A stretch of DNA of 64,000 nucleotides from Pseudomonas sp. Tri1 (GTDB taxonomy: Bacteria; Pseudomonadota; Gammaproteobacteria; Pseudomonadales; Pseudomonadaceae), in NCBI RefSeq assembly GCF_017968885.1, contig NZ_CP072913.1, forward strand, positions 5,868,501 through 5,932,500. Direction: 5' to 3'. The notes under the pieces were generated by a model. That model ran no database searches. It saw nothing but the letters and a program-made list of their open reading frames with translations, and was not told the origin of the DNA. Both the position numbers and the translations under genes were made by a program. Shown in pieces: positions 6,556-51,084 of this stretch. How positions within the stretch are numbered: position 1 is the first letter of the stretch; each line of letters begins with the position of its first letter.

Positions 6556-6848
6556 CATATGTGTGTATATCCGTTGCTGCGGTAACGGCCACTTATGGTT
6601 CCGCTCTTACAGCGGGTCACTTTTGGAAGAGCCCGGAAGCCGGCCCAGTCAAAAGTAACCAAAAACGCTTTGCCCCACCACTCGGCACCTCGCCTAGGCT
6701 CGGTGTGCCCTCACTCCGGCATTGCTCCGTGGGCCCGCCGCGAAGGGCCATCCATGGCCCAGCGCGGCTATCCCGGCATCCATGCCGGGATGCCCACTGC
6801 GCAATGCCTGCGTTCGGCCAGCGTGGTTTAACGGGGCGTCCAGATCAA
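6556..6848. repeat. Left arm of a ~290-bp inverted repeat
   Basis: This arm runs from about TGTGTATATCCG to TTAACGGGGCG. It reappears in reverse complement at about 7180-7472 with roughly 85-90% identity by eye. Shared landmarks are GGTTCCGCTCTTACAGCGGG, GAAGCCGGCCCAGTCAAAAG, CACTCGGCACCTCGCCTAGG and CATGGCCCAGCGCGGC. No open frame in it looks like a protein. It resembles a non-autonomous repeat (MITE-like), but no target-site duplication could be fixed. Confidence 0.7.
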
Positions 6849-7179: not shown

Positions 7180-7472
7180 CGTTGATCTCGGGCGCCCCGT
7201 TAACCACGATGGCTGAACGCAGGCATTGGTTCGTGGGCAACCCGGCATGGATGCCGGGTTAGCCGCGCTGGGCCATGGATGGCCCTTCGCGGCGGCCCAC
7301 GGAGCAATGCCTTCGTTCAGGCATGCCGAGCCTAGGCGAGGCACCGAGTGGTGGGGCAGAAGCGTTTTGGTTACTTTTGACTGGGCCGGCTTCCGGGCTT
7401 CTCAAAAGTGACCCGCTGTAAGAGCGGAACCATCAGTAGCCGTTACCGAAGAAACGGATATACACACCACCC
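7180..7472. repeat. Right arm of the ~290-bp inverted repeat
   Basis: Reverse-complement partner of 6556-6848. It ends about 20 bp downstream of the lipA stop codon on the minus-strand reading and may contribute a strong 3' structure to the lipA message. The whole 6526-7494 gap contains only these arms, the microsatellites and the REP copies. Confidence 0.7.
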
Positions 7473-40019: not shown

Positions 40020-40136
40020 TACTGTTTAACTGCGTTTAGCCCGCCGCTTTCAAATCCTGCAAACGGAAAGATCGTCTTATATATTTGAACGACATGTTTA
40101 TTGCCGAAAACAGCTTCGTCTCTAAACTTTCCGTTT

Positions 40137-40868
40137 ATGAAAATACTTTCCAGTGGCGACCGCTTCAGAGCCCTTCTAAAAGAAGCGAATATCCGATCCG
40201 CCGACTTCGCGAAGTTATACGGCGTGAAATCCCAGCACATAAACAACTGGTTCAACCGTGGCATCCCGCCCGGGCGCATCCACTCCATCGCCAGCCTGCT
40301 GACGGTCAGCCCGGAGTGGCTCGCCCACGGCGAAGGCCCCCAAACCCCATTGGGCCTCGGCCCCGGCACCACCTATGAAGCCGCCGAAAACGATGGCGTC
40401 TACAGCGTGCTGGAACCCACGGACATCGAACTGCCTTTCTACAAGGAAGCCCCCATCGCCCCCGGCGAAACCAAAACCCACATCATCGAAATCCCCGACC
40501 AATCCATCCGCCTGCCCCGCAGCCACCTAGAATCCCTGGAAATCGACCCCGGCGACGCCATCTGCATCACCATGGTCGGCGACAGCATGGCCGAACGCAT
40601 CGAAGACGGCTCCACCCTCGCCATCGACCGCGGCCTGACCCAAATCGTCGACGGCCATATCTATGCGCTTGAGCACGACGGCATGCTGCGTATCAAATAC
40701 CTGCATCGCGTTCCCGGTAATCGGCTGCGGCTGCGTAGCCATAACTGTGCTGCGTATCCTGACGAGGTCTTCAGTGCGGAACAGATTGATGCGCAGAACA
40801 TACGGGTGATTGGCTGGGTGTTCTGGTGGTCAACCCTCAACAAACGGAGACCGCCGGTGTTCGACTAA
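40137..40868 (+). CDS. HTH/S24-family (LexA/phage-repressor-like) transcriptional regulator
   Basis: A 243-residue protein with an N-terminal XRE-like HTH (~8-65: FAKLYGVKSQHINNWFNRGIPPGRIHSIASLLTVSPEWLAHG) and a C-terminal S24 peptidase fold (~110-235). The catalytic Ser is in MVGDSMAERIEDGS and the Lys probably in HDGMLRIKYLHRV. No Ala-Gly or Cys-Gly pair, the usual self-cleavage site, is visible in the linker. ATG 40137 has no Shine-Dalgarno sequence. The bases directly before it (CTTTCCGTTT) are complementary to AAACGGAAAG at 40061-40070. Related proteins (PrtR type) control pyocin and prophage genes; no phage genes are adjacent here. Confidence 0.85.
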   Translation: MKILSSGDRFRALLKEANIRSADFAKLYGVKSQHINNWFNRGIPPGRIHSIASLLTVSPEWLAHGEGPQTPLGLGPGTTYEAAENDGVYSVLEPTDIELPFYKEAPIAPGETKTHIIEIPDQSIRLPRSHLESLEIDPGDAICITMVGDSMAERIEDGSTLAIDRGLTQIVDGHIYALEHDGMLRIKYLHRVPGNRLRLRSHNCAAYPDEVFSAEQIDAQNIRVIGWVFWWSTLNKRRPPVFD

Positions 40869-41049: not shown

Positions 41050-41216
41050 TCCGCCCCACATTTGCGAGCCCACGCCTCGCACCGACAAGGCAGATCACTT
41101 TCTGACCAAGTCCCACAGCCGGCCGCAAGAGCCGGATGTACGTTTTGAAGGCTGGTGAGGTTTGTCAAAAACGAACTGAGTTAGTCAACGAGAAGCCGGC
41201 CATAAGCCGGCTTTTT
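41050..41216 (+). ncRNA. Possible small RNA or leader with intrinsic terminator
   Basis: This gap has no open frame with a ribosome site. It contains a hairpin CCGGC-CGCAAGA-GCCGG (~41118-41134) and ends in AGCCGGC (41194-41200), CATAA, GCCGGCT (41206-41212) and TTTT, a convincing Rho-independent terminator in the plus direction. A terminator more than 300 bp after the previous gene implies a transcript ending here, either a long 3' UTR of the S24 gene or a separate small RNA. No known family was recognised. The AT-rich 41217-41400 that follows contains nothing assignable. Confidence 0.35.
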
Positions 41217-41400
41217 AATGTCTGGTGGAAAACTGTTTCCATCTACTGAGAATTGAATAATTGTGTCAATGGTGCTGGCACTTTTGCTTCTACGGGGTGA
41301 CGGAGCAAAAAAGTAAGTTGCTTCACTTTCTATTGAAGGAAGTTTCCTAGAAAATCAAACTCGCTTGCGCCTGACAAATGCGCTGACTAGTCTTCGGTTG

Positions 41401-41626
41401 TCACTGCCAATTCAGTGATCGGGTTTAGCAGCCCGCCGTTTGATTAGGCGCAAAGCGCCGCCATTGCATGGCGCTTTTTTATGGCCCCAGCTTTATGGTG
41501 GCCGTGCGCAGGGCACCCTCGGGTGCGCCGGGTTCCTAATCACCGGTCTGCTAACCTGCAAACGGCCGCCACCCTAATCGTTTAGCAGCGACGATGACGG
41601 CACCTCAATTGATTAGGAGATGCATC
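41401..41626 (+). promoter_or_regulatory. Structured leader of the DUF3077-like gene, copy A
   Basis: Shared with 50867-51084 (reverse strand). In order: hairpin TCACTG/CAGTGA (41401-41418); CGGG-TTTAGCAG-CCCG (41420-41435), an 8-base loop on a 4-bp stem; an intrinsic-terminator-like hairpin AAGCGCC/GGCGCTT plus T run (41453-41480) found only in this copy; GGCACCC-TC-GGGTGC (41512-41526); GGT-CTGCTA-ACC (41545-41556), whose loop is complementary to TAGCAG; and TCG-TTTAGCAG-CGA (41578-41591), repeating the first loop. AGGAG and ATG 41627 follow. Conservation across two distant copies points to a functional RNA or a set of protein-binding sites. Confidence 0.65.
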
Positions 41627-42013
41627 ATGAAAAAACTCGTCCCAGCCCCACCGTCGTCCCAATCTGGGCAGCGTAGAAATCGTCAATATGACCTCGTCAA
41701 CCAACAAATTCTTCAGCATTTCAATTCTCGCGACGTAGATAACCGCGTTCTCAAGCAGCTGAAGAAAACCACACCTATTCCAGTCGGTCGTGACTCACCA
41801 TTCTGCGTACGAGCGGGTGTCAGCGCGGAAGAAGCGCTGGTTCACGTATCTCTGTTACTTGACTGTGCGCTACAGGTTAGCGATGAAATCACCGAACATG
41901 GCAGCGGCCTTGAACGAGGGTTGATTTGGTCAATGGTTCACTCTGTGGAGATGGCTAGAGCCGTGGTGGATGCATTGTTGAATGCCAGCAGACCGACCGA
42001 AGCAACAGGGTAG
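41627..42013 (+). CDS. Small Pseudomonas-type hypothetical protein (DUF3077-like)
   Basis: A 128-residue soluble protein that begins MKKLVPAPPSSQSGQRRNRQ and has a C-terminal half (~65-120) reading FCVRAGVSAEEALVHVSLLLDCALQVSDEI. That half resembles the small DUF3077 family found in many copies in pseudomonads. ATG 41627 has TTAGGAG eight bases upstream; an in-frame ATG at 41594 lies inside the structured leader and is less likely. Function unknown. The protein at 50507-50866 has the same plan (FRIAPDVDSECLLANLSENLASANAMISDLA), so the two are distant paralogues flanking the defence island. Confidence 0.75.
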   Translation: MKKLVPAPPSSQSGQRRNRQYDLVNQQILQHFNSRDVDNRVLKQLKKTTPIPVGRDSPFCVRAGVSAEEALVHVSLLLDCALQVSDEITEHGSGLERGLIWSMVHSVEMARAVVDALLNASRPTEATG

Positions 42014-42145
42014 CAATGGAAAACGTTGGAGGCGCAGATAGATGAAACGGACGAATTAAATACGATCCGCCCGTTTTCGAGCTAAAAGAGACGCGAGCAA
42101 GCATTTTCGCCTTCAACGAGCAGAGTACCGCAAGGGGAGGTAAAA

Positions 42146-42386: not shown

Positions 42387-45035
42387 ATGGCCACCACCGT
42401 CACCCCCCTGATGCTTACCTGTCCTATCAGAGGATTGCTAAAGCCAAAAAAGAAAGCCTCGACCGACCTAAGCGCGTTGGAGGAGCGGCATCGCATAGAC
42501 GCGATCCGATATTGCCTCTCGCTTGGCTACGATCCAAAGCGAATCAAAATCGAAGCAGTGATTGCCAAATTTGGCAATGGAGGCAAGAACAGCTTTCGTT
42601 GCGATTTTGCAATCCTTGATGTAGAAGCATCCTGCCTTGACATGACGGCCCCAGACTCGCTCGAAGAGATGCTAAAACATGCAATAGTTTTGGTCGAAGT
42701 CAAACGAGATGATCATAAAGCGGACTACGTCCGTAAAACGCAAGTTGAACCCCTACTCAATTTTGCTCCCCGAAAGGACTCCATTGCTCTCTATTGGGAT
42801 GGAATCAACCCTCGAGTGTTCTGGAAAGAGGACACTGGAACGTCTCTCGCAATAAAAAGCGGCCCCCTAGCACTGTTACCAAAGCCTGGAAAAACGATTA
42901 AGGCAAAGGCATTGGTACATGCTGACCTCATTCCCCCTGACTCGTTACTAGAAGTTTTTTCTCGAATTGAGGACGTTCTCCATGGGGCATCCGTCTCATT
43001 AGAGGAGCGCTACGAGCTGATGCTACAGCTTATCCTCGCCAAAATTTATGATGAACATGAGCGTGAATCAGATCCAACATCCGAGTGCGTCTTCCAAGAT
43101 TATGAATCTATTGGCACAAATGCGATCGATGCAGCTAACTCGCTTAACTCCGTGCTTGAGTCTGCAGTGAGCTTTTACAGCGCTCATTTGCCCAAGGCGA
43201 TAGAAGATCGCTTTCAGGTAAACAATGAGGTGCTCGCCTACTGCGGCCAAATAATGGCACCCCACTTAATAACTGCTGCAAACAAAGAAGTCATCCAAAC
43301 CTTCTACATGAAATTTGCTAAAGATCTTTATCGATGGGACTTGGCACAATATTTCACCCCCCCGACCGTTACAGACTTTATTGTTGAGGCTTTAAACCCA
43401 GTTTCAGGAGAACTGGTAAAAGACCCTGCCTGCGGTAGCGCTGACTTTTTAGTTGCAACCTTTCACCGTAGCCGCGATAAAAAAATCAAAAATCCAGCCG
43501 ACATGTTGCACGGGGCTGATGATGACAAAAAAGCAGTGCAGATTTCCGTACTGAACATGCTATTAAATGGCGACGGCAAAACAAACATTCAGAAGCAAGA
43601 CTCTCTCCTTGCTGTTGCTGCTGACCGAGCAGAAGCCAGAAAGGACAAAAAATTCAAGCCTGTTCAATATCACAATGTTGTTTGCAACCCTCCGTTCGGC
43701 GTAAAAATCGTCGAAAAACGGCGTGAGGTACTTAAAGAGTTCAGCTTAGGTCACGTATGGAGCAAGGACGCTGCGGGCGAATGGCGTCAATCCGAAGAGG
43801 TTTTAGCACAGCAAGAAAAAGGACTGTTGTTTGCTGAAGTTTGTGTGCATCAAGCTAGAGCAGGAGGACGCATAGCCATAATCGTCCCAAATGGCTACCT
43901 AGGCAATCGCTCAGACCGATACGTTGCATTTAGAGAGTGGCTTCTACGTCAATGCCGCATTGTCTCAGTCTGCGGCTTTCCCCGCTTCACCTTTAAAACT
44001 AGCGGGGCTGACGTTAGTGCTAGCGTGCTCTACTTAGAAAAGCGCGCCAAGCCACTTTCATCCTCCGACGACGATCAGGACTACATGTTCAACGCCGAAC
44101 TAATTGAAAATGTCGGCTGGAGCGTTGGTGATAACAAGGCTCTTCCAACTTATCTACGCGACGAATTAGATGGTAGTTACATTGTCGGTTCCGACGGCAA
44201 AAAAGTCATAAAGTCAGACTTTGAATCCGCTTTGGCTGATATGCGCTCAAGCCCAGCCGTCGCACAATTTCCATGGATGGTTAAAAGCCTCGGTATAGCT
44301 CCACATGGTTCGGGAGCGCATGGATGGGCCGTTTCGATTGAGAACGTTCTGACTGATCCAACGCGAACACTTGATCCTAAAAGACACTCAAGGAAATATG
44401 CGGCTCTGGTTGCACAGATCCAATCAAAAAAACATTTACCATTAACATCAATTTTTGAAGTTATTTCTCAAGGCACGAGGGCTAAAGGCACATCCTTTCA
44501 GAAGAAAGATGAGGAGCTTTACGCGTATATAGACATTGATAGCATGGGAGCTGGAGAGTATCGAGCCACACCTATCCGAGGCTGGCAACTTCCAGCTAGA
44601 GGCCGGCACCTGGCGGGCTCACTAGACGTCTTTATAGGATCCATTTGGAGTAGCGTGACCAAGTGGTGTCTTATCGAGCAAAAACCTGCCGCAAACCTCG
44701 TTGTCACCAATGGTTGCCATCGTTTGAGATTGAAAGAAGGCATGCGAAAGTATTTAGTGGATGTCTGTGTTTTCCTTTGCTCAGAAACTTATGCCACCCA
44801 AATGCGGGCGCTTGCAAGGGGCTCGGATGGTTTGGCAGAAATTCATGAAGCAGATTTGTCTGCTGTGCTGGTTCCTATTTTGTCAGATGCTGAGCGCAAA
44901 ACATTCGAACCATTGGTACAGTCGTTGATGGACGGTACCGGCACGCTGCGTGGCACTGTGCAAGAAATGTTGATTAGTGCCAAGTTAAACCTGCCACAAC
45001 CCGCACCACGCCCTCACCATTCTGCTCTTGTCTAA
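42387..45035 (+). CDS. Single-chain restriction-modification enzyme (HsdR_N-type nuclease + N6-adenine methylase + specificity region)
   Basis: An 882-residue defence protein. The N-terminal ~150 residues resemble the HsdR N-terminal nuclease, a PD-(D/E)xK fold, with the Asp in SFRCDFAILD (~73) and VLVEVKRDD (ExK, ~104). The middle is an N6 DNA methylase: QYFTPPTVTDFIVEAL, motif I DPACGSADF (~346) and motif IV NPPFG (~434). The C-terminal ~250 residues look like a target-recognition region. All three activities in one chain suggest a type IIG or fused type I enzyme; no separate HsdS or HsdR is present. The third Gly of motif I is Ala. GC and codon use (ATA, AGA, TTA) differ from the core genes, indicating transfer. 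Start ATG 42387 lacks a good ribosome site. Confidence 0.85.
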   Translation: MATTVTPLMLTCPIRGLLKPKKKASTDLSALEERHRIDAIRYCLSLGYDPKRIKIEAVIAKFGNGGKNSFRCDFAILDVEASCLDMTAPDSLEEMLKHAIVLVEVKRDDHKADYVRKTQVEPLLNFAPRKDSIALYWDGINPRVFWKEDTGTSLAIKSGPLALLPKPGKTIKAKALVHADLIPPDSLLEVFSRIEDVLHGASVSLEERYELMLQLILAKIYDEHERESDPTSECVFQDYESIGTNAIDAANSLNSVLESAVSFYSAHLPKAIEDRFQVNNEVLAYCGQIMAPHLITAANKEVIQTFYMKFAKDLYRWDLAQYFTPPTVTDFIVEALNPVSGELVKDPACGSADFLVATFHRSRDKKIKNPADMLHGADDDKKAVQISVLNMLLNGDGKTNIQKQDSLLAVAADRAEARKDKKFKPVQYHNVVCNPPFGVKIVEKRREVLKEFSLGHVWSKDAAGEWRQSEEVLAQQEKGLLFAEVCVHQARAGGRIAIIVPNGYLGNRSDRYVAFREWLLRQCRIVSVCGFPRFTFKTSGADVSASVLYLEKRAKPLSSSDDDQDYMFNAELIENVGWSVGDNKALPTYLRDELDGSYIVGSDGKKVIKSDFESALADMRSSPAVAQFPWMVKSLGIAPHGSGAHGWAVSIENVLTDPTRTLDPKRHSRKYAALVAQIQSKKHLPLTSIFEVISQGTRAKGTSFQKKDEELYAYIDIDSMGAGEYRATPIRGWQLPARGRHLAGSLDVFIGSIWSSVTKWCLIEQKPAANLVVTNGCHRLRLKEGMRKYLVDVCVFLCSETYATQMRALARGSDGLAEIHEADLSAVLVPILSDAERKTFEPLVQSLMDGTGTLRGTVQEMLISAKLNLPQPAPRPHHSALV

Positions 45036-45157
45036 GTAGAGAGTAACAGCCGCAAGAAACACTTGGCCTCCGAACTTCTAAGGCGGGAAATGCCCCTTAG
45101 GAGTTCGGAGATAAAGGCAAATCATCTTCCATGCGTCTCTGCAGTATCAGCTATTAG

Positions 45158-45277
45158 TTGGAGTCTGACGTTCCTAAGGTATTGAACGCCAAATTTCTCA
45201 GCCGCCAAAGGAGGACCTCCATGCCCGCCCCAACCTACGATGCCTGTCTATGCACGTCGGGATGGTATTTCCAATGA
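45158..45277 (+). pseudogene. Possible remnant of a DarT-type toxin gene upstream of darG
   Basis: An open frame without an initiation codon before 45221 reads LNAKFLSRQ... and ends [13 protein letters not shown]. Its TGA overlaps the darG ATG (ATGA). DarT toxins normally lie directly upstream of DarG and end in an aromatic WYF/WYY-type tail after an AEFLV-like segment, so this looks like the last part of a darT gene with most of the body lost. AAAGGAGG at 45207-45214 could now drive translation of an 18-residue peptide from ATG 45221. This is a hypothesis from very little sequence. Confidence 0.35.
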
Positions 45278-46362
45278 TCCTTTTTACCCAAGGCAACCTC
45301 CTGGAAGCCGAAACGGAAGCCCTAGTCAACGCTGTGAATACCGTCGGCGTGATGGGTAAAGGTATCGCACTGATGTTCAAGGAGCGCTTCACGGAGAATT
45401 ACCGCCTGTACTTGGCTGCCTGCAAGGCTGGCGAAGTGGAGACGGGCAACGTTCACGTGACCGCGGTCAGCGAGCTGGAGGGGCCACGCTGGATTGTGAA
45501 CTTCCCGACTAAACGTCACTGGCGCTCACCTTCGCAGATGGCATGGATAACCGAAGGTTTGCACGACCTACGTCGCTTTCTGATCGAAAACGATGTGAAG
45601 TCCGTGGCGGTTCCACCGCTAGGGGCTGGCAACGGTGGTTTGAAATGGCCAGAGGTTCGCGAACAGATTGTTGAGATCCTGAGTGATCTTGATGTCGATG
45701 TGCTGGTGTTCGAGCCTTCCAACCAGTATCTGAACGTTGCTAAGCGTAACGGTGTGGAGAAGCTCACGCCTGCTCGTGCACTGATTGCCGAACTGGTTCG
45801 TCGCTACTGGGTTCTGGGGATGGAATGCAGCCTGCTTGAGATTCAGAAGCTGGCTTGGTTCCTTGAGCGCGCCATCGAAAAGCGGCCAAACACCGAAAAC
45901 CCGCTGAATCTCCAGTTCGTTGCTCATAAGTACGGGCCGTATGCCAACCGGCTGGAGCATCTGCTCAACAATCTGGACGGCAGCTATCTGCATTGCGATA
46001 AGCGCATCAGTGATGCTGGTATCAGCGATGTGATCTGGTTTGACGAAGGACGCAAAGCTTTCTTGCAGACCTATCTTCAAACAGAGGCCAAGGCGTACGC
46101 CCAGGCCTTGGAGCGCACCGCCGAGTTGATCGATGGGTTTGAGTCGCCTTTCGGCATGGAGTTGTTAGCGACGGTTGATTGGTTGCTGAGCCAGGAAGGG
46201 ATTTCCCCGACTGTGCCGGCCGTGCGCGAGGCGTTGAAGCATTGGGATGGCGGAGCGGGTGCTGCGGCTCGTAAAAGCAAGCTGTTCGATGATCAGGCGC
46301 TTGATATCGCGCTGAAGCGGTTAACGTCCAGTAGTTTCAAGCCGGAGATAGCAACCGGGTAA
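45274..46362 (+). CDS. darG: DarG-type macrodomain antitoxin (DNA ADP-ribosyl glycohydrolase), orphan
   Basis: A 362-residue protein. The N-terminal ~155 residues are a macrodomain ([39 protein letters not shown] ... [15 protein letters not shown]), of the class that removes ADP-ribose from thymidine in DNA. The C-terminal domain (~160-362: [48 protein letters not shown]) is the DarT-binding part of DarG antitoxins. The length fits DarG. ATG 45274 overlaps a short upstream frame. No intact darT ADP-ribosyltransferase gene is within 2.5 kb, so the antitoxin seems to have lost its toxin or to serve against foreign DarT. Confidence 0.85.
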
Positions 46363-46407
46363 TTGTGCAGTAGGTTGTTGCAAAATCTGAGCGCTCATCG
46401 GGGCTAT

Positions 46408-47979
46408 TCATTCCATGGTCGCAATCAGAGGGCTGCCCAACTCATCCCATATATTCGCCATAACAACAGCATCGTCACCACAGCCCATAACAATCACCCC
46501 CACTCCGTTTGCACGCCGATAATCATCAGACTCCATTCCGGCGACGCCACCGCCCTTAGGCACCAGCAAGACCACACAGTCCGGCCGACGCCCCTTCCAT
46601 CGCAAGCTGTCGCGATATATATGCGCGGACTCCATCCCCTCCAGAACCCCTTGCCTACTGACCCTATACTTTGCGTCAGCTATAAAAAACCGGCTCGCTT
46701 CGGGTGACTCCAGAGTAATTGCGATGTCGGGAAACCGCTGTCCAGAAATGCTGGAAAAACCCTTGTAAGGCTTTTCACCAAAGGAGGAGCACTGCACCTG
46801 CAACCAAACGTTTACTTCAAAGCCAGTGCCTTTTCCTGTCCACCGAATGCAATCGTCACGCTGCGAGGGATATTCCCCTACCCACTCCAACTGCGGATAC
46901 CGCAGCCGCATCTGCTCAACGATTTTCACGTAGCACCAGCGCTCATAGATTTCCCAGGTAGGGCTTATCCATAAACTCTCGCCGTTGGAGTCACCCATCA
47001 ATCCTGATCGTAATGTGTACCAGGCAAATCGGTAGGCTCTCGCATATACCGGATGGGCTGAAACAGCGTTCAGTCCCGCTGCGGACAGCCTGCTATTTTT
47101 GAGGCTCCGGAACGGCTCCATACGTTGGATACGGCGCAACGCCCCATGCAATGATTCTAAATATTCTATCCGGCGAACCAGTCGGGGAGCTAAAGCAGAT
47201 CGGGTGCTGGACTCGCGATCCTTTTTGTTTAGCTGCGCTTGAAACTCGAGGCTGACTTGTCGGCAGCGACGCATGACTTCGATCAGGGTACACGCCAAGG
47301 TTTGATTTGCCGGATTATCAAGGTCGTTAAAAACCGTAGAAATGTCGAACTTGACCTGATCAGGCGCGCACGATGGCGCGGCGCTTGAATGCAAAAACGA
47401 AAGAGCGGCTGGATCTCTTAATGCCTTGCGGACCGCTTGCTGGTCAAGCCGCTTAACGTGGTTGGCATTAGCCTGGGTTCGTTCGCGACGTAAGCGGGTC
47501 AGCGGCTTTTCCGTCACACGGGTAAAGGCAGTGATGAGCTGCGCCCCATACTGTCGCAATCTCGAATACTGAAGGTGCAGGTTGCTTGAGCTGCCGTCGA
47601 TGCCAATTTTCGTTTGAGCGTGCTCAGTACCAAACAAAAGGTTAGGGTCGAACGAGAGAATTTCGTCAATCATTTGGGAGAACGACTCGCGCCCTAACTT
47701 CGTGGCGTGAGGCGAAACATCCAAGCGATAGCTGGCGATCAATTTATCCTGACTAGTCAGCTCGGCCACAACCTCGCCCGCGTAAAATCCAGGGCTCCAT
47801 GCCCACACAGCTACGCCTTGATGGAGCGTCTCATCGAGCGCTACATCGTCGATATAAAATTGGTGCTCGGGTATCGCTGCAAAAAAGTAGTCGCCGAGTT
47901 CGCTAAAGCCCGGCGATAGATCATCAGGCGTCACTTCGAAATGACCGCCCTGCATGTCGATACAACGGATAATCGCCAT
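46408..47979 (-). CDS. DUF2357 PD-(D/E)XK nuclease, McrC-like partner
   Basis: A 523-residue protein. The N-terminal part (~1-170) is a DUF2357-type beta-rich region. The C-terminal part (~330-510) is a restriction-endonuclease-like fold with SLWISPTWEIYERWCYVKIVEQM and the catalytic line FPDIAITLES ... FFIADAKYR (D...DxK). Proteins of this type are encoded next to McrB-like AAA+ ATPases and are thought to cut modified or phage DNA when the motor is engaged. Its ATG lies 2 bp after the stop of the ATPase gene, so the two are one operon. It is convergent with darG. Confidence 0.85.
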   Translation of the reverse strand: MAIIRCIDMQGGHFEVTPDDLSPGFSELGDYFFAAIPEHQFYIDDVALDETLHQGVAVWAWSPGFYAGEVVAELTSQDKLIASYRLDVSPHATKLGRESFSQMIDEILSFDPNLLFGTEHAQTKIGIDGSSSNLHLQYSRLRQYGAQLITAFTRVTEKPLTRLRRERTQANANHVKRLDQQAVRKALRDPAALSFLHSSAAPSCAPDQVKFDISTVFNDLDNPANQTLACTLIEVMRRCRQVSLEFQAQLNKKDRESSTRSALAPRLVRRIEYLESLHGALRRIQRMEPFRSLKNSRLSAAGLNAVSAHPVYARAYRFAWYTLRSGLMGDSNGESLWISPTWEIYERWCYVKIVEQMRLRYPQLEWVGEYPSQRDDCIRWTGKGTGFEVNVWLQVQCSSFGEKPYKGFSSISGQRFPDIAITLESPEASRFFIADAKYRVSRQGVLEGMESAHIYRDSLRWKGRRPDCVVLLVPKGGGVAGMESDDYRRANGVGVIVMGCGDDAVVMANIWDELGSPLIATME

Positions 47980-47981
47980 GG

Positions 47982-50405
47982 TTAACGCCAGAACCGGGCG
48001 GATCCGAGATACTGCAGGTCATCAAGCAGCTCATGAACCTTTTGAGTAGATGCTTTCAGGTCGGCATTTTCCAATACCTTCTTCACCGAACCAAAGGCAG
48101 TCTTAATGCGTGGACTATCTTCTCCTCGGAGCTTAGGAAGTACTTTGGCGTAAATCGCTTGGTCCAATGCGCCGTTAAATTCGATCACCCCTCCCCGCTC
48201 AGCCTCTTGGACGTAACCAATCACGTCACGGATCGTGCGCCAACCAAAGTGCAGACGCACGGGACGCAGGGCCTGAACGAGATCCTTGAGCGTTTGCCGT
48301 ACAACGGTGATTTGCTGCTCAGACAGTTCACAGTTTCTCCAACCTGGGAAAGCCTCAACATCGATGTCCCAAAACTCGATAACGGCAGCACGATCAAGCA
48401 CCTTGTCGCTCAAGCCATGGGTCGTTTCGTCCATATTGACGGTGCCGATAATGACGAGGTTGCTGGGATAGGGAACGTTCGGCGGCACTCCGTTTACTTC
48501 ACCACCCTGGGCGTGCAGTTCTATGTTGTCCCCGGTTTCCATAGCCGAGAGCAATGGCGAGAAATATTGCTCAGGATGGGACAGGTTCATTTCGTCCAAC
48601 ACCACTGTGTAGGGTCGATCGGGGTCTGCGCTGGCCTGAAGCAGAAAGTCGAGGAACCCCGTACGTACATAGGTATCGCTGTCCAGTGGATTAACGTAAC
48701 CCAATAGACACGATGGGTCGTGCCAACCTGGTTGCACCGGAACAATGAGCAAACCACTTTTTGGGTCATCTTCATTGCTGCGCATACCAAGGGCGTAACC
48801 CCGCGCCAACAGTGTTTTGCCCGCACCACTCAGGCCTGTCAGCACGGCAAAGTGTCGACGAGGATGTCCCCACAACCCCGCGTCGAGTTGACCAATAAGC
48901 TCGTCCTTAAAGCGGATATTTTCGTCAAAACTGGCGATGATTTGCTTGAGTGGCGGGCGTTCCACCGAACCGCCGAGAACCAGACTCGCAGCAGAGCCAT
49001 CTGCAATCGTAGACAACGGAGCGGCGATCACCAGCACATCTGGGACCCAGTGAATACGCGCAGCCCAGCTCTCTCCTCGGTCGGACAGACGAAGCATTTT
49101 ATCGGTTGATAACTCGACCAATTGCAGTGCCCGAGTCCAGTTGATCAAGCTGTTGGGCACAAAGGTGCTTGTCCAATTTGCGTTGACCTTCTGCAACTCG
49201 GCAACAGCCGCTTTGGTTGGCATCGGCGCTGTCTTCAGTGCATATAAAAGATTGTCGAGCCCCAGTATTCGGGTCAGAAGCCAGTCGGAGACTTCATCAG
49301 GGTCGCCGGACTCCAGAAAACCTTCCCCCCGTGGAGTCAAAACAAGGTTGTCGCCATCTGCTCGCAAGACCCCCCACTCAGCGATCAGAGCATTCATCTG
49401 AGTAGAAATCGTGGCAGGCGCCAATGCTTGATTCAGTGAGCGCATATGCTCGCGAAAGTCTTCTCGAGTACAGCCCTCTCTCGCAAACTCGATCATTGCT
49501 CGAATGGTTGAAACGTACCCACCTATCGCAAGCATGCCGCGGCGTCGACGATCAGCTGGAAGGGGATTGAGCTTTTCCTCGCCCGTCGTCAGATCTGCGG
49601 TCTCGGTAGCTTCCAGCTCCTGATTCTGTACATGTAACACGTAGAGTAGCCATGGGAGCGTCATGCGCTCCACCCAGCCTTGCGAGAAAATAGGCCCTGG
49701 CTCGCCCAATACCGCATCAAGGCGCTGTTTGACCAGACGATGTAGTGCCAATCGATTTTCGGCACCGCGACTAATGCCCATTGAGACCGCCAACTCGCGC
49801 AGCTTCCGGTGATGCGTAATGGTTGTGAAGTACTCAGGACACAGGGCAGCGAATAGACGATAGCGCTTCAACCGTGGATTACGCTTGACGAGTGGCTCTA
49901 CCAGCTCAGCCACTTGGGACCAAGTGTCATTGATCAACTGCTCCTGCTGGACAGGATCGAGGTCGGGAGACTGCGATTTCAACCGCCACAGACATTCGGC
50001 GACCAGAGGCTCTTTGACCACAGCAGAGATATCGATTCGGCCCATGCCAGTCGCCGACACTGCCTCGCTGTCCCACAGCTCTTTCTGGAAAGCTTCACTA
50101 ATGAAACCCTGATGATCAGTGTTGCGAACTCTGAGAAGGAAATTGGAGAGCTTATTGAGCCACGCGTCATGACCCGGGGAAAGGCGGTATTGCTGCAGGG
50201 CACTTTCACAGGCGGCCTTGAGTTGGTCGTCGTCTTTTAGATCTATGGCCATGGCCGAGCGTTCCTTGCTAGATGGGTCGATTTGTTCTGCGAACTTAAT
50301 GATGTCATTACGACATCCGAAATCATACTCCCAAGGGGAAGTGAAGAATCGCCCCTTGCTCATCCGGAGAATTAATGCCACGAACGCGCGATGGGACCTG
50401 CTCAT
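47982..50405 (-). CDS. McrB-like AAA+ ATPase of a type IV-like restriction system
   Basis: An 807-residue motor protein. The N-terminal ~500 residues have no recognised DNA-binding domain; the region ~310-400 (GRR-rich, then AEWGVLRADGDNLVLTPRGEGFL) looks like a winged helix. The C-terminal AAA+ domain carries Walker A LTGLSGAGKTLLARGY (~522), Walker B YTVVLDEMNLS (~600) and GTVNMDETTHGLSDKVLDRA, the McrB/dynein-like sensor region. The partner nuclease follows immediately. ATG 50405 has no clear ribosome site; Met 15 (50363) or ATG 50252 (MAIDLKDDDQ) are alternative starts. It is isolated from the upstream gene by a strong terminator. Confidence 0.85.
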   Translation of the reverse strand: MSRSHRAFVALILRMSKGRFFTSPWEYDFGCRNDIIKFAEQIDPSSKERSAMAIDLKDDDQLKAACESALQQYRLSPGHDAWLNKLSNFLLRVRNTDHQGFISEAFQKELWDSEAVSATGMGRIDISAVVKEPLVAECLWRLKSQSPDLDPVQQEQLINDTWSQVAELVEPLVKRNPRLKRYRLFAALCPEYFTTITHHRKLRELAVSMGISRGAENRLALHRLVKQRLDAVLGEPGPIFSQGWVERMTLPWLLYVLHVQNQELEATETADLTTGEEKLNPLPADRRRRGMLAIGGYVSTIRAMIEFAREGCTREDFREHMRSLNQALAPATISTQMNALIAEWGVLRADGDNLVLTPRGEGFLESGDPDEVSDWLLTRILGLDNLLYALKTAPMPTKAAVAELQKVNANWTSTFVPNSLINWTRALQLVELSTDKMLRLSDRGESWAARIHWVPDVLVIAAPLSTIADGSAASLVLGGSVERPPLKQIIASFDENIRFKDELIGQLDAGLWGHPRRHFAVLTGLSGAGKTLLARGYALGMRSNEDDPKSGLLIVPVQPGWHDPSCLLGYVNPLDSDTYVRTGFLDFLLQASADPDRPYTVVLDEMNLSHPEQYFSPLLSAMETGDNIELHAQGGEVNGVPPNVPYPSNLVIIGTVNMDETTHGLSDKVLDRAAVIEFWDIDVEAFPGWRNCELSEQQITVVRQTLKDLVQALRPVRLHFGWRTIRDVIGYVQEAERGGVIEFNGALDQAIYAKVLPKLRGEDSPRIKTAFGSVKKVLENADLKASTQKVHELLDDLQYLGSARFWR

Positions 50406-50506: not shown

Positions 50507-50866
50507 CTACCTCACCTCAACAATATCCAAAGCCCGATTCGCCATCAGCTCACTCACCTCAATCACCTGCAAAATCCCCAACGCAAAATGCCGTCGAGAT
50601 CCCTCAAGACCAAACGCCAAATCACTGATCATGGCATTGGCCGAAGCTAGGTTTTCACTGAGATTGGCCAGCAGACATTCCGAATCAACATCCGGCGCAA
50701 TACGGAAGATGGTGTTGGTCTTGTCAGACGTTTCCTTCTCAGGCGTAGGGTTCAGATAGAAATCCAAAGCCCGATTGGCAGCATCATCAAGTTTCTTGTT
50801 ACGAGCAGACTGAACACGAGACACGGTTTCATCTGTAGCTGGAGGGTTCGGTGTAATTTTGACCAT
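50507..50866 (-). CDS. Small Pseudomonas-type hypothetical protein (DUF6124-like)
   Basis: A 119-residue protein, MVKITPNPPATDETVSRVQSARNKKLDDAANRALDFYLNP..., recalling a small family (DUF6124) that occurs in several copies in fluorescent pseudomonads. It may be DUF3077-related through FRIAPDVDSECLLANLSENLASANAMISDLA. It ends with a helical stretch VIEVSELMANRALDIVEV. ATG 50866 has AAGG upstream; Met at 50893 is less likely. The structured leader upstream matches that of the gene at 41627. Function unknown. Confidence 0.8.
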   Translation of the reverse strand: MVKITPNPPATDETVSRVQSARNKKLDDAANRALDFYLNPTPEKETSDKTNTIFRIAPDVDSECLLANLSENLASANAMISDLAFGLEGSRRHFALGILQVIEVSELMANRALDIVEVR

Positions 50867-51084
50867 AGCCTTAACTCTCTTTGGTGAGGCCACGACCCTC
50901 TCGCTGCTAAACGAGTGGGTGGCAGCTGTACGCGGGTTAGCAGACCGACGAGTTAAGAAATCGGCGCGCCCGAGGGCGCCCCACGCACAGCCACCATCAA
51001 GTGCAGGATGGGAATACCTGACTGATGAAGCTTGATGCGACTCAACTCGACGGGCTGCTAAACCCGATCACTGATGGGCAGTGA
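50867..51084 (-). promoter_or_regulatory. Structured leader of the DUF6124-like gene, copy B
   Basis: Reverse-strand counterpart of 41401-41626. It contains TCACTG/CAGTGA (51068-51084), CGGG-TTTAGCAG-CCCG (51051-51066), GGCGCCC-TC-GGGCGC (~50966-50981), GGT-CTGCTA-ACC (50935-50946) and CTCG-TTTAGCAG-CGAG (50900-50915). Compared with copy A, one A-T pair in the GC hairpin is replaced by G-C on both sides, a compensatory change. The stem of the last hairpin is one pair longer. The terminator-like hairpin of copy A is absent. Confidence 0.65.

Follow-up and report, generated by a model that had tools for sequence, protein, structure and literature searches.

A C4-type antisense-RNA module upstream of a DUF6124-like gene in Pseudomonas sp. 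Tri1, one of 25 copies with different pairing words

The leader of a small DUF6124-like gene in Pseudomonas sp. Tri1 is, with a probability that we put at about 90%, a C4 antisense-RNA module like that behind the immunity of phages P1/P7, here preceding a single small gene and lacking an antirepressor gene. In the window (the whole 64,000-nucleotide stretch of DNA that was analysed), the C4 antisense RNA (RF01695) was found at 41491–41576 with 79.5 bits (E 1.6e-15, cut-off 45), and the c4-a1b1 target element (RF03163) lies 5′ of it at 41387–41439 with 58.4 bits, also above its cut-off (46.7). The preliminary description knew of no named element with this layout, which was mistaken because Rfam identifies both. 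The Rfam search that it had itself proposed places the leader in a described family, an outcome it had listed as speaking against its proposal, and the novelty first claimed, that of a new kind of switch, does not hold. The isrK model (RF01394) scored 46.8 bits at 41400–41480, below its cut-off of 50, and the leader is not classed as isrK. Sequence alone could hardly identify the leader as a C4 module more firmly. Its features, and those of a second copy in the window, are as follows.

41365–41393, plus strand: promoter-like region (TTGCGC, 17 nt, TAGTCT), found by eye
41387–41439, plus strand: c4-a1b1 target element (RF03163, 58.4 bits), with the a1 word TTTAGCAG at 41424–41431
41441–41448, plus strand: b1 word TGATTAGG, complement of the C4 loop (sequence; permutation 4/20,000)
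41452–41480, plus strand: terminator-like hairpin, candidate end of a short IsrK-like RNA (sequence)
41491–41576, plus strand: C4 antisense RNA (RF01695, 79.5 bits), with b′ CCTAATCA at 41535–41542 and a′ CTGCTAA at 41548–41554
41581–41588, plus strand: a2 word TTTAGCAG (sequence; pairing tests)
41610–41619, plus strand: b2 word TGATTAGG (41610–41617) over AGGAG (41615–41619) (sequence; pairing tests)
41627–42013, plus strand: target gene, 128 amino acids, DUF6124/DUF3077-like (PF19619, 24.4 bits)
50508–50866, minus strand: target gene of the second copy, 119 amino acids, DUF6124 (PF19619, 96 bits)
50915–51001, minus strand: second C4 copy (L002; RF01695, 82.4 bits), with the a word of the focal copy and a different b word

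The module carries two pairing words. TTTAGCAG is found as a1 and as a2, and CTGCTAA in the a′ loop is complementary to both; the two identical 8-base loops and the complementary middle loop of the preliminary description are present where it had placed them. The second word, which the preliminary description had overlooked, is CCTAATCA in the b′ loop of the C4, and it fits TGATTAGG at b1 and at b2. The b2 word overlaps the Shine-Dalgarno sequence AGGAG 5′ of the ATG at 41627, and the a′ and b′ loops are complementary to a target whose b2 word overlaps the ribosome-binding site. The terminator-like hairpin that had been proposed inside the leader is likewise present, with a T-run, at ∼41452–41480 between b1 and the C4. 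Stem P1 of the C4 starts with GGT. The window contains TTTAGCAG four times (0.94 expected by chance), and the other two occurrences, at 50904–50911 and 51055–51062 on the minus strand, lie on either side of the second C4 copy.

The fold of the 226-nt leader gave a z of −2.31 and was bettered by just 1 of 200 shuffles. When the 25 C4 paralogs of this genome were aligned to the structure taken from Rfam, 96.3% of the cells were paired, and changes on both sides were seen in 14 of the 27 stem pairs, compared with 7.1 in shuffles (0 of 500 shuffles equal); this alignment comprises paralogs of one genome. Promoter-like spacing is seen by eye just 5′ of the a1 hairpin in many (uncounted) of the 25 copies; a stricter σ70 consensus scan of 41200–42100 found no promoter. 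A conserved GCCAGAATCCGCCGGCTTGT 5′ of the promoter-like region occurs in L002, L006, L011, L014, L019, and others and is absent from the focal copy.

The genome holds 25 C4 copies above the cut-off and 26 DUF6124 matches, which we counted as 25 genes because one gene is split. Neither element was found in any of 14 control genomes. By coordinate comparison, 20 of the 25 C4s are followed by a DUF6124 gene on the same strand (the focal one scoring under the cut-off), and 20 of the 25 DUF6124 genes have a C4. The C4 of L008 has a DUF3077 frame further downstream, those of L010 and L015 are followed by small frames without a Pfam match, that of L004 by a similar small frame, and that of L021 by a 56-amino acid frame only. 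The first reading frame after the C4 is short or frame-shifted in four copies (L005, L008, L019, and L021). At the five DUF6124 loci without an Rfam C4, a C4 model built from this genome found none either. Two of these loci retain an a1b1 match, one above and one below the cut-off, and none of the genome's C4s fits them convincingly. The two loci that keep the match, L026 (5.747 Mb) and L027 (1.531 Mb), encode proteins without the TPNPP-type start that most C4-linked copies have. Profiles for Bro-N, TerL_ATPase, and Terminase_6N had no match in the whole genome, although each of them was positive in three to six of the control genomes; judged by Bro-N and these two terminase families, the module set is probably not a set of prophages.

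The word pairs of the 25 copies are all different, with 16 a words and 24 b words. In a strict test that required seven or more Watson-Crick pairs in the a helix and also seven or more pairs, G-U included, in the b helix, all 25 cognate pairs passed compared with 19 of 600 non-cognate pairs. This specificity rests on both words together, because 222 of the 600 non-cognate pairs pass on b alone (threshold 7, G-U allowed); 41 pass on a alone. The mean C4–target pairing energy was −25.0 kcal/mol for cognate and −15.8 kcal/mol for non-cognate pairs, and the observed energy was reached in 0 of 20,000 permutations, for each word alone and for their sum. Ranked by duplex energy, the cognate target came first for 11 of the 25 C4s and among the best three for 23. 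On the a1b1 side, 0 of 20,000 permutations were as strong as the observed a1 pairing, and b1, the weakest word, was reached by 4 of 20,000. Of 74 C4 loci sampled elsewhere, 67 passed the cognate word test and seven failed. These 74 comprise 48 loci from other genomes and 26 from viral or phage collections; the latter include L123, the record of a bacterial tailocin region. Identical viral copies (21, and three further identical ones) were each entered once, and both C4 matches of the viral contig L122 (one of them weak, 30 bits) were left out.

The preliminary description had also suggested that the repeated words are DNA sites for a regulatory protein, as two direct copies and one inverted copy might indicate. 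This is an explanation to which we give next to no weight, because the C4 stems covary as RNA and the three words differ together between paralogs while staying complementary. The sites vary among paralogs and match within each copy, so that 16 a words would need many regulators. The parts of the module, their order, the C4 fold, and the paralog-specific complementarity are direct observations.

Transcription, processing, repression, and relief would follow the precedents of P1/P7 and IsrK. A single transcript would start near 41395. Part of the transcripts would stop at the internal terminator (41452–41480), yielding a short a1/b1 RNA, and the rest would read through. From the read-through RNA the C4 would be excised, as RNase P does in P1/P7, and its a′ and b′ loops would pair with a2 and b2 over the ribosome-binding site and repress the DUF6124-like gene both in cis and on other transcripts. 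In P1, b′ is described as occluding the ribosome-binding site and a′ as adding specificity (passages of PMC5320573), and by analogy with P1, P7, and IsrK the C4 would silence the DUF6124-like gene. The short a1/b1 RNA bears the same two words and would titrate the C4, so that the ratio of short to long transcripts would set expression. A five-T run 5′ of the C4 is present in just 8 of the 25 copies, and the short-RNA arm may therefore not be general.

Of the two exclusive kissing states proposed earlier, the part that stands is that the middle element can pair with either flank, an idea that has a published neighbour in IsrK. The part that does not is the restriction to cis: most likely, the middle element is an antisense RNA released by processing, able to act in trans as well and directed mainly at the ribosome-binding site of the DUF6124-like gene. 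A purely cis-acting switch, in which the middle hairpin kisses either outer loop and thereby controls terminator read-through without any free antisense RNA, would suit the placement of all elements on the same strand and in order, and the long IsrK mRNA is described as held translationally inactive by internal structures (passages of PMC4825925). We nevertheless consider such a switch unlikely. The three stems of the C4 form a complete, closed domain that shows covariation as a whole, and the C4 matches an RNA that is described as processed and acting on target mRNAs (passages of PMC5320573). Moreover, the longer b word meets the ribosome-binding site and not the terminator, and most copies (all but the 8 of 25 above) have no five-T run in the leader.

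A C4 set of this size might also be a host repertoire of antisense RNAs that silences incoming phages by C4-type immunity, given that C4 underlies P1/P7 heteroimmunity (PMC12197685) and that Pseudomonas phages and P4-like satellites carry C4. This is highly improbable in our estimation, as each C4 has a private linked target and the genome's C4s fit both words of phage or viral targets in 12 of 650 cases (1.8%), compared with 19 of 600 (3.2%) for non-cognate targets of their own genome. Word matching thus showed no excess of phage matches, in a sample of 26 phage or viral loci that is small and mostly from other hosts. A duplex-energy test against the phage targets told little, since in long GC-rich windows even unrelated stems can pair, and it was superseded by the strict contiguous words.

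The closest copies within the genome differ in a coordinated way. L006 and L011, which are tandem copies, agree at 235 of the 252 columns of their leaders; a two-base difference occurs at a1, a′, and a2 together, and the b words are identical. L011 and L014 share the a word and differ in b jointly in the C4 loop and at the ribosome-binding site. The code of L011 may stem from exchange between copies rather than from new mutation, because its 5′ part resembles L014; three separate sites match either way. The proteins of L006, L011, and L014 are under purifying selection (dN/dS values among the three of 0.10, 0.16, and 0.14). The four closest paralog pairs range from 0.08 to 0.16, and all pairs with a defined value from 0.045 to 0.465.

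In a second species (G010), a sense C4 was found upstream of 19 of the 20 DUF6124 genes taken. These are 20 of 29 matches, mostly the best-scoring, with two chosen for proximity and one (L158) whose C4 was known beforehand. L157 showed no reading frame at the usual spacing. The word test was passed by 18 of 19 cognate and 10 of 342 non-cognate pairs, with 19 distinct word pairs; the failure, L153, has a b helix of 6. Seven G010 leaders were compared with those of Tri1: four have a best match of 93–96% (L162/L006, L163/L014, L160/L016, and L161/L011) and three of 69–79%. The four matched leaders keep the a word, and they keep the b word except for one end base in L160/L016. By sequence, L161 at 5.70 Mb in G010 is the counterpart of L011 at 1.15 Mb in Tri1, which suggests that C4 modules move or get copied.

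C4 was present in 138 of 149 sampled genomes of the genus and DUF6124 in 118 of the same 149; 33 of the genomes have at least 27 C4 copies, 27 being the number of candidates scored. In a sample of the phylum, C4 was found in 35 of 249 genomes, and outside the genus in 31 of 244, 26 of which have 1–3 copies and five 5–14 (at most 16 candidates scored). DUF6124 exceeded the cut-off in 3 of the 249 genomes, all of this genus, and had one weak match outside. In several Pseudomonas genomes, C4 is followed by a family of 52–54-amino acid proteins (MHALNPSK...-like; L032, L033, L034, L046, L047, and L050, and also L124), and L033 shares an identical C4 with the satellite phiAH14b. Elsewhere in the genus, C4 precedes a similar Bro-N-like gene (L043, L045, L048, L049, L051, and L052, mostly assigned by eye); cut to 130 amino acids, that of L045 scores 45.6 bits for Bro-N, and the frame of L051 is shorter.

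The same module order occurs in named phage records and viral contigs. The first gene carries an antirepressor or phage-regulator Pfam domain in 16 of the 22 distinct viral C4 loci (domains were scanned at these 16 and at L098 and L120): Bro-N in L106, L119, L108, L103, L081, L114, and L121, P22_AR_N in L093, L110, L115, and L080, Rha in L104, L090, and L089, KilA-N in L118, and AntA in L122. In the viral contigs L098 and L120, C4 is followed by DUF3077 (23.6 and 42.5 bits, cut-off 21) and then by a Bro-N antirepressor, so that DUF3077 occupies the place of Icd in P1 or of Orf45 in Gifsy-1. From these gene orders we infer that the chromosomal modules are phage C4 operons reduced to the switch and the first gene.

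Such an origin could also have left decaying prophage remnants without present function. The layout is that of a phage operon, complete with DUF3077 and antirepressor in L098 and L120; C4 is missing at 5 of the 25 DUF6124 genes (an a1b1 match persists at two), and 4 of the 25 first frames are broken or short. Decay is very unlikely all the same. Complementarity is intact in 25 of 25 copies, dN/dS lies at 0.08–0.16 in the four closest paralog pairs, the words are kept in the four cross-species matches, and 25 modules coexist with no Bro-N or terminase (two families) match in the genome.

The focal gene scores 24.4 bits for DUF6124 (PF19619), below the cut-off of 27. Among the best 120 of 224 relatives of its protein, the named ones are from Pseudomonas and nearly all are called DUF6124, DUF3077, or hypothetical; the earlier label “DUF3077-like” was near enough. 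The predicted structure (mean pLDDT 65.9, pTM 0.45) has two C-terminal helices, and its fold gave no match in the PDB at E ≤ 0.001. A type I toxin–antitoxin system was also considered; the protein has no match in PADLOC. The next gene on the strand encodes an N-6 DNA methylase, in place of the antirepressor of a P1-type immI operon. None of the seven neighbouring genes and the levansucrase gene of the right flank is a phage structural gene.

Between the two C4 modules (42387–50405) lies a defence-like island with the DNA methylase, DarG, a DUF2357/PDDEXK_7 protein, and a PDC-M26A-like protein. The DarG-like antitoxin (45250–46362, plus strand) has a macro domain and scores 405 bits in PADLOC; no DarT toxin was seen among the scanned neighbouring genes. 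A repressor-like gene (40101–40868) adjoins the focal module. In EU982300 (L123), a C4–DUF6124 module stands beside prtR in the tailocin region of Pseudomonas fluorescens. Two TwoAYGGAY RNA motifs above the cut-off lie in opposite orientations in the window (7207–7326, plus strand; 6731–6795, minus strand).

In six relatives (L129–L134), conservation on the left side extends to ∼41220 (alignments end at 41219–41233), after which the sequences differ; beyond this point, integrase-like frames are seen by eye in two and a toxin–antitoxin-like pair in one. The position ∼41220, directly 3′ of a terminator-like hairpin, appears as an insertion hot spot. The focal module begins ∼170 bases into the variable stretch, and the second C4 copy adjoins the right-hand flank (levansucrase gene; alignment from 51293). 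At this flank, C4 is absent from the 1.3 kb compared in one relative, and another has a C4 in the opposite orientation. C4 modules are therefore gained and lost.

That one genome can hold many C4 RNAs is already known, since 21 have been described in Acinetobacter baumannii (a passage of PMC5320573). What looks new is the set of 25 chromosomal C4 switches, each with a private pairing code, and the DUF6124/DUF3077 partner. In the literature searched (mostly outside subscription journals), we found neither the link of C4 to DUF6124/DUF3077, nor a private, changing code, nor one-to-one targets; DUF3077/DUF6124 appear there in a passage on a P. putida pseudogene. It is conceivable, though on balance doubtful, that Pseudomonas turned a phage immunity device into dozens of insulated switches per genome, each silencing one DUF6124/DUF3077 paralog. 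Codes would diverge after duplication by matched changes at three sites, ending cross-silencing, and the proteins, by analogy with P1 Icd at the same operon position, would modulate growth when released under stress or upon loss of the locus. If C4 works here as in P1, one bacterium offers 25 natural, nearly orthogonal pairs of antisense RNA and ribosome-binding site on one scaffold. This would be a natural data set for tracing the divergence of RNA pairing specificity between duplicates. It would also supply ready-made parts for synthetic regulation and open a direct route to a widespread, apparently silenced family of small proteins in Pseudomonas.

Among known systems, the focal module is close to the immI operon of P1/P7. 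Both have the C4 fold, the a′ and b′ loops, and a b2 word covering the ribosome-binding site where the first downstream small gene begins (passages of PMC5320573 and PMC8198154), and, by Rfam, an a1b1 target upstream. The GGT at the start of stem P1 is also like the known C4 cleavage site (as given in part of PMC5320573). The P1 operon is reported to run c4-icd-ant1/2 (excerpts of PMC8198154 and PMC12197685), and Icd to inhibit division via FtsZ (excerpt of PMC11897509). Whereas the first gene is icd and an antirepressor lies downstream in P1/P7, the first gene here is DUF6124-like and is followed by a DNA methylase gene, in a genome without a Bro-N match. A further difference from P1/P7 is the number of C4 copies, 25 in this genome, all with words of their own.

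IsrK of the Salmonella prophage Gifsy-1 is a short RNA that ends at an internal terminator and activates, in trans, an otherwise translationally inactive read-through mRNA; two isoforms and a switch are described (passages of PMC4825925). In Burkholderia cenocepacia, isrK and C4 are expressed and mapped as one transcription unit (passage of PMC4603805). The focal leader would be similar in its short leader RNA with a terminator and its read-through into a small open reading frame. It differs in its isrK score below the cut-off (46.8 compared with 50), and no AntQ/AnrP partner was seen adjacent to it.

The satellites phiAH14b and vB_Pae_U10 (“P4-like” from their gene lists) have a C4 by the model built from this genome, with an integrase, AlpA or excisionase, and a primase nearby; unlike the focal module, they are mobile and carry other downstream genes. 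A parallel in copy number is offered by the Group 1 sRNAs of A. baumannii (PMC5320573, in the passages concerned), with many C4-like RNAs and variable a′ loops in one genome, expression with processing-like read patterns, and silencing of incoming phages as one of two proposed roles. Whereas those passages name no linked target gene, each C4 of Tri1 has its own cognate target, with a DUF6124 gene in 20 of 25 cases.
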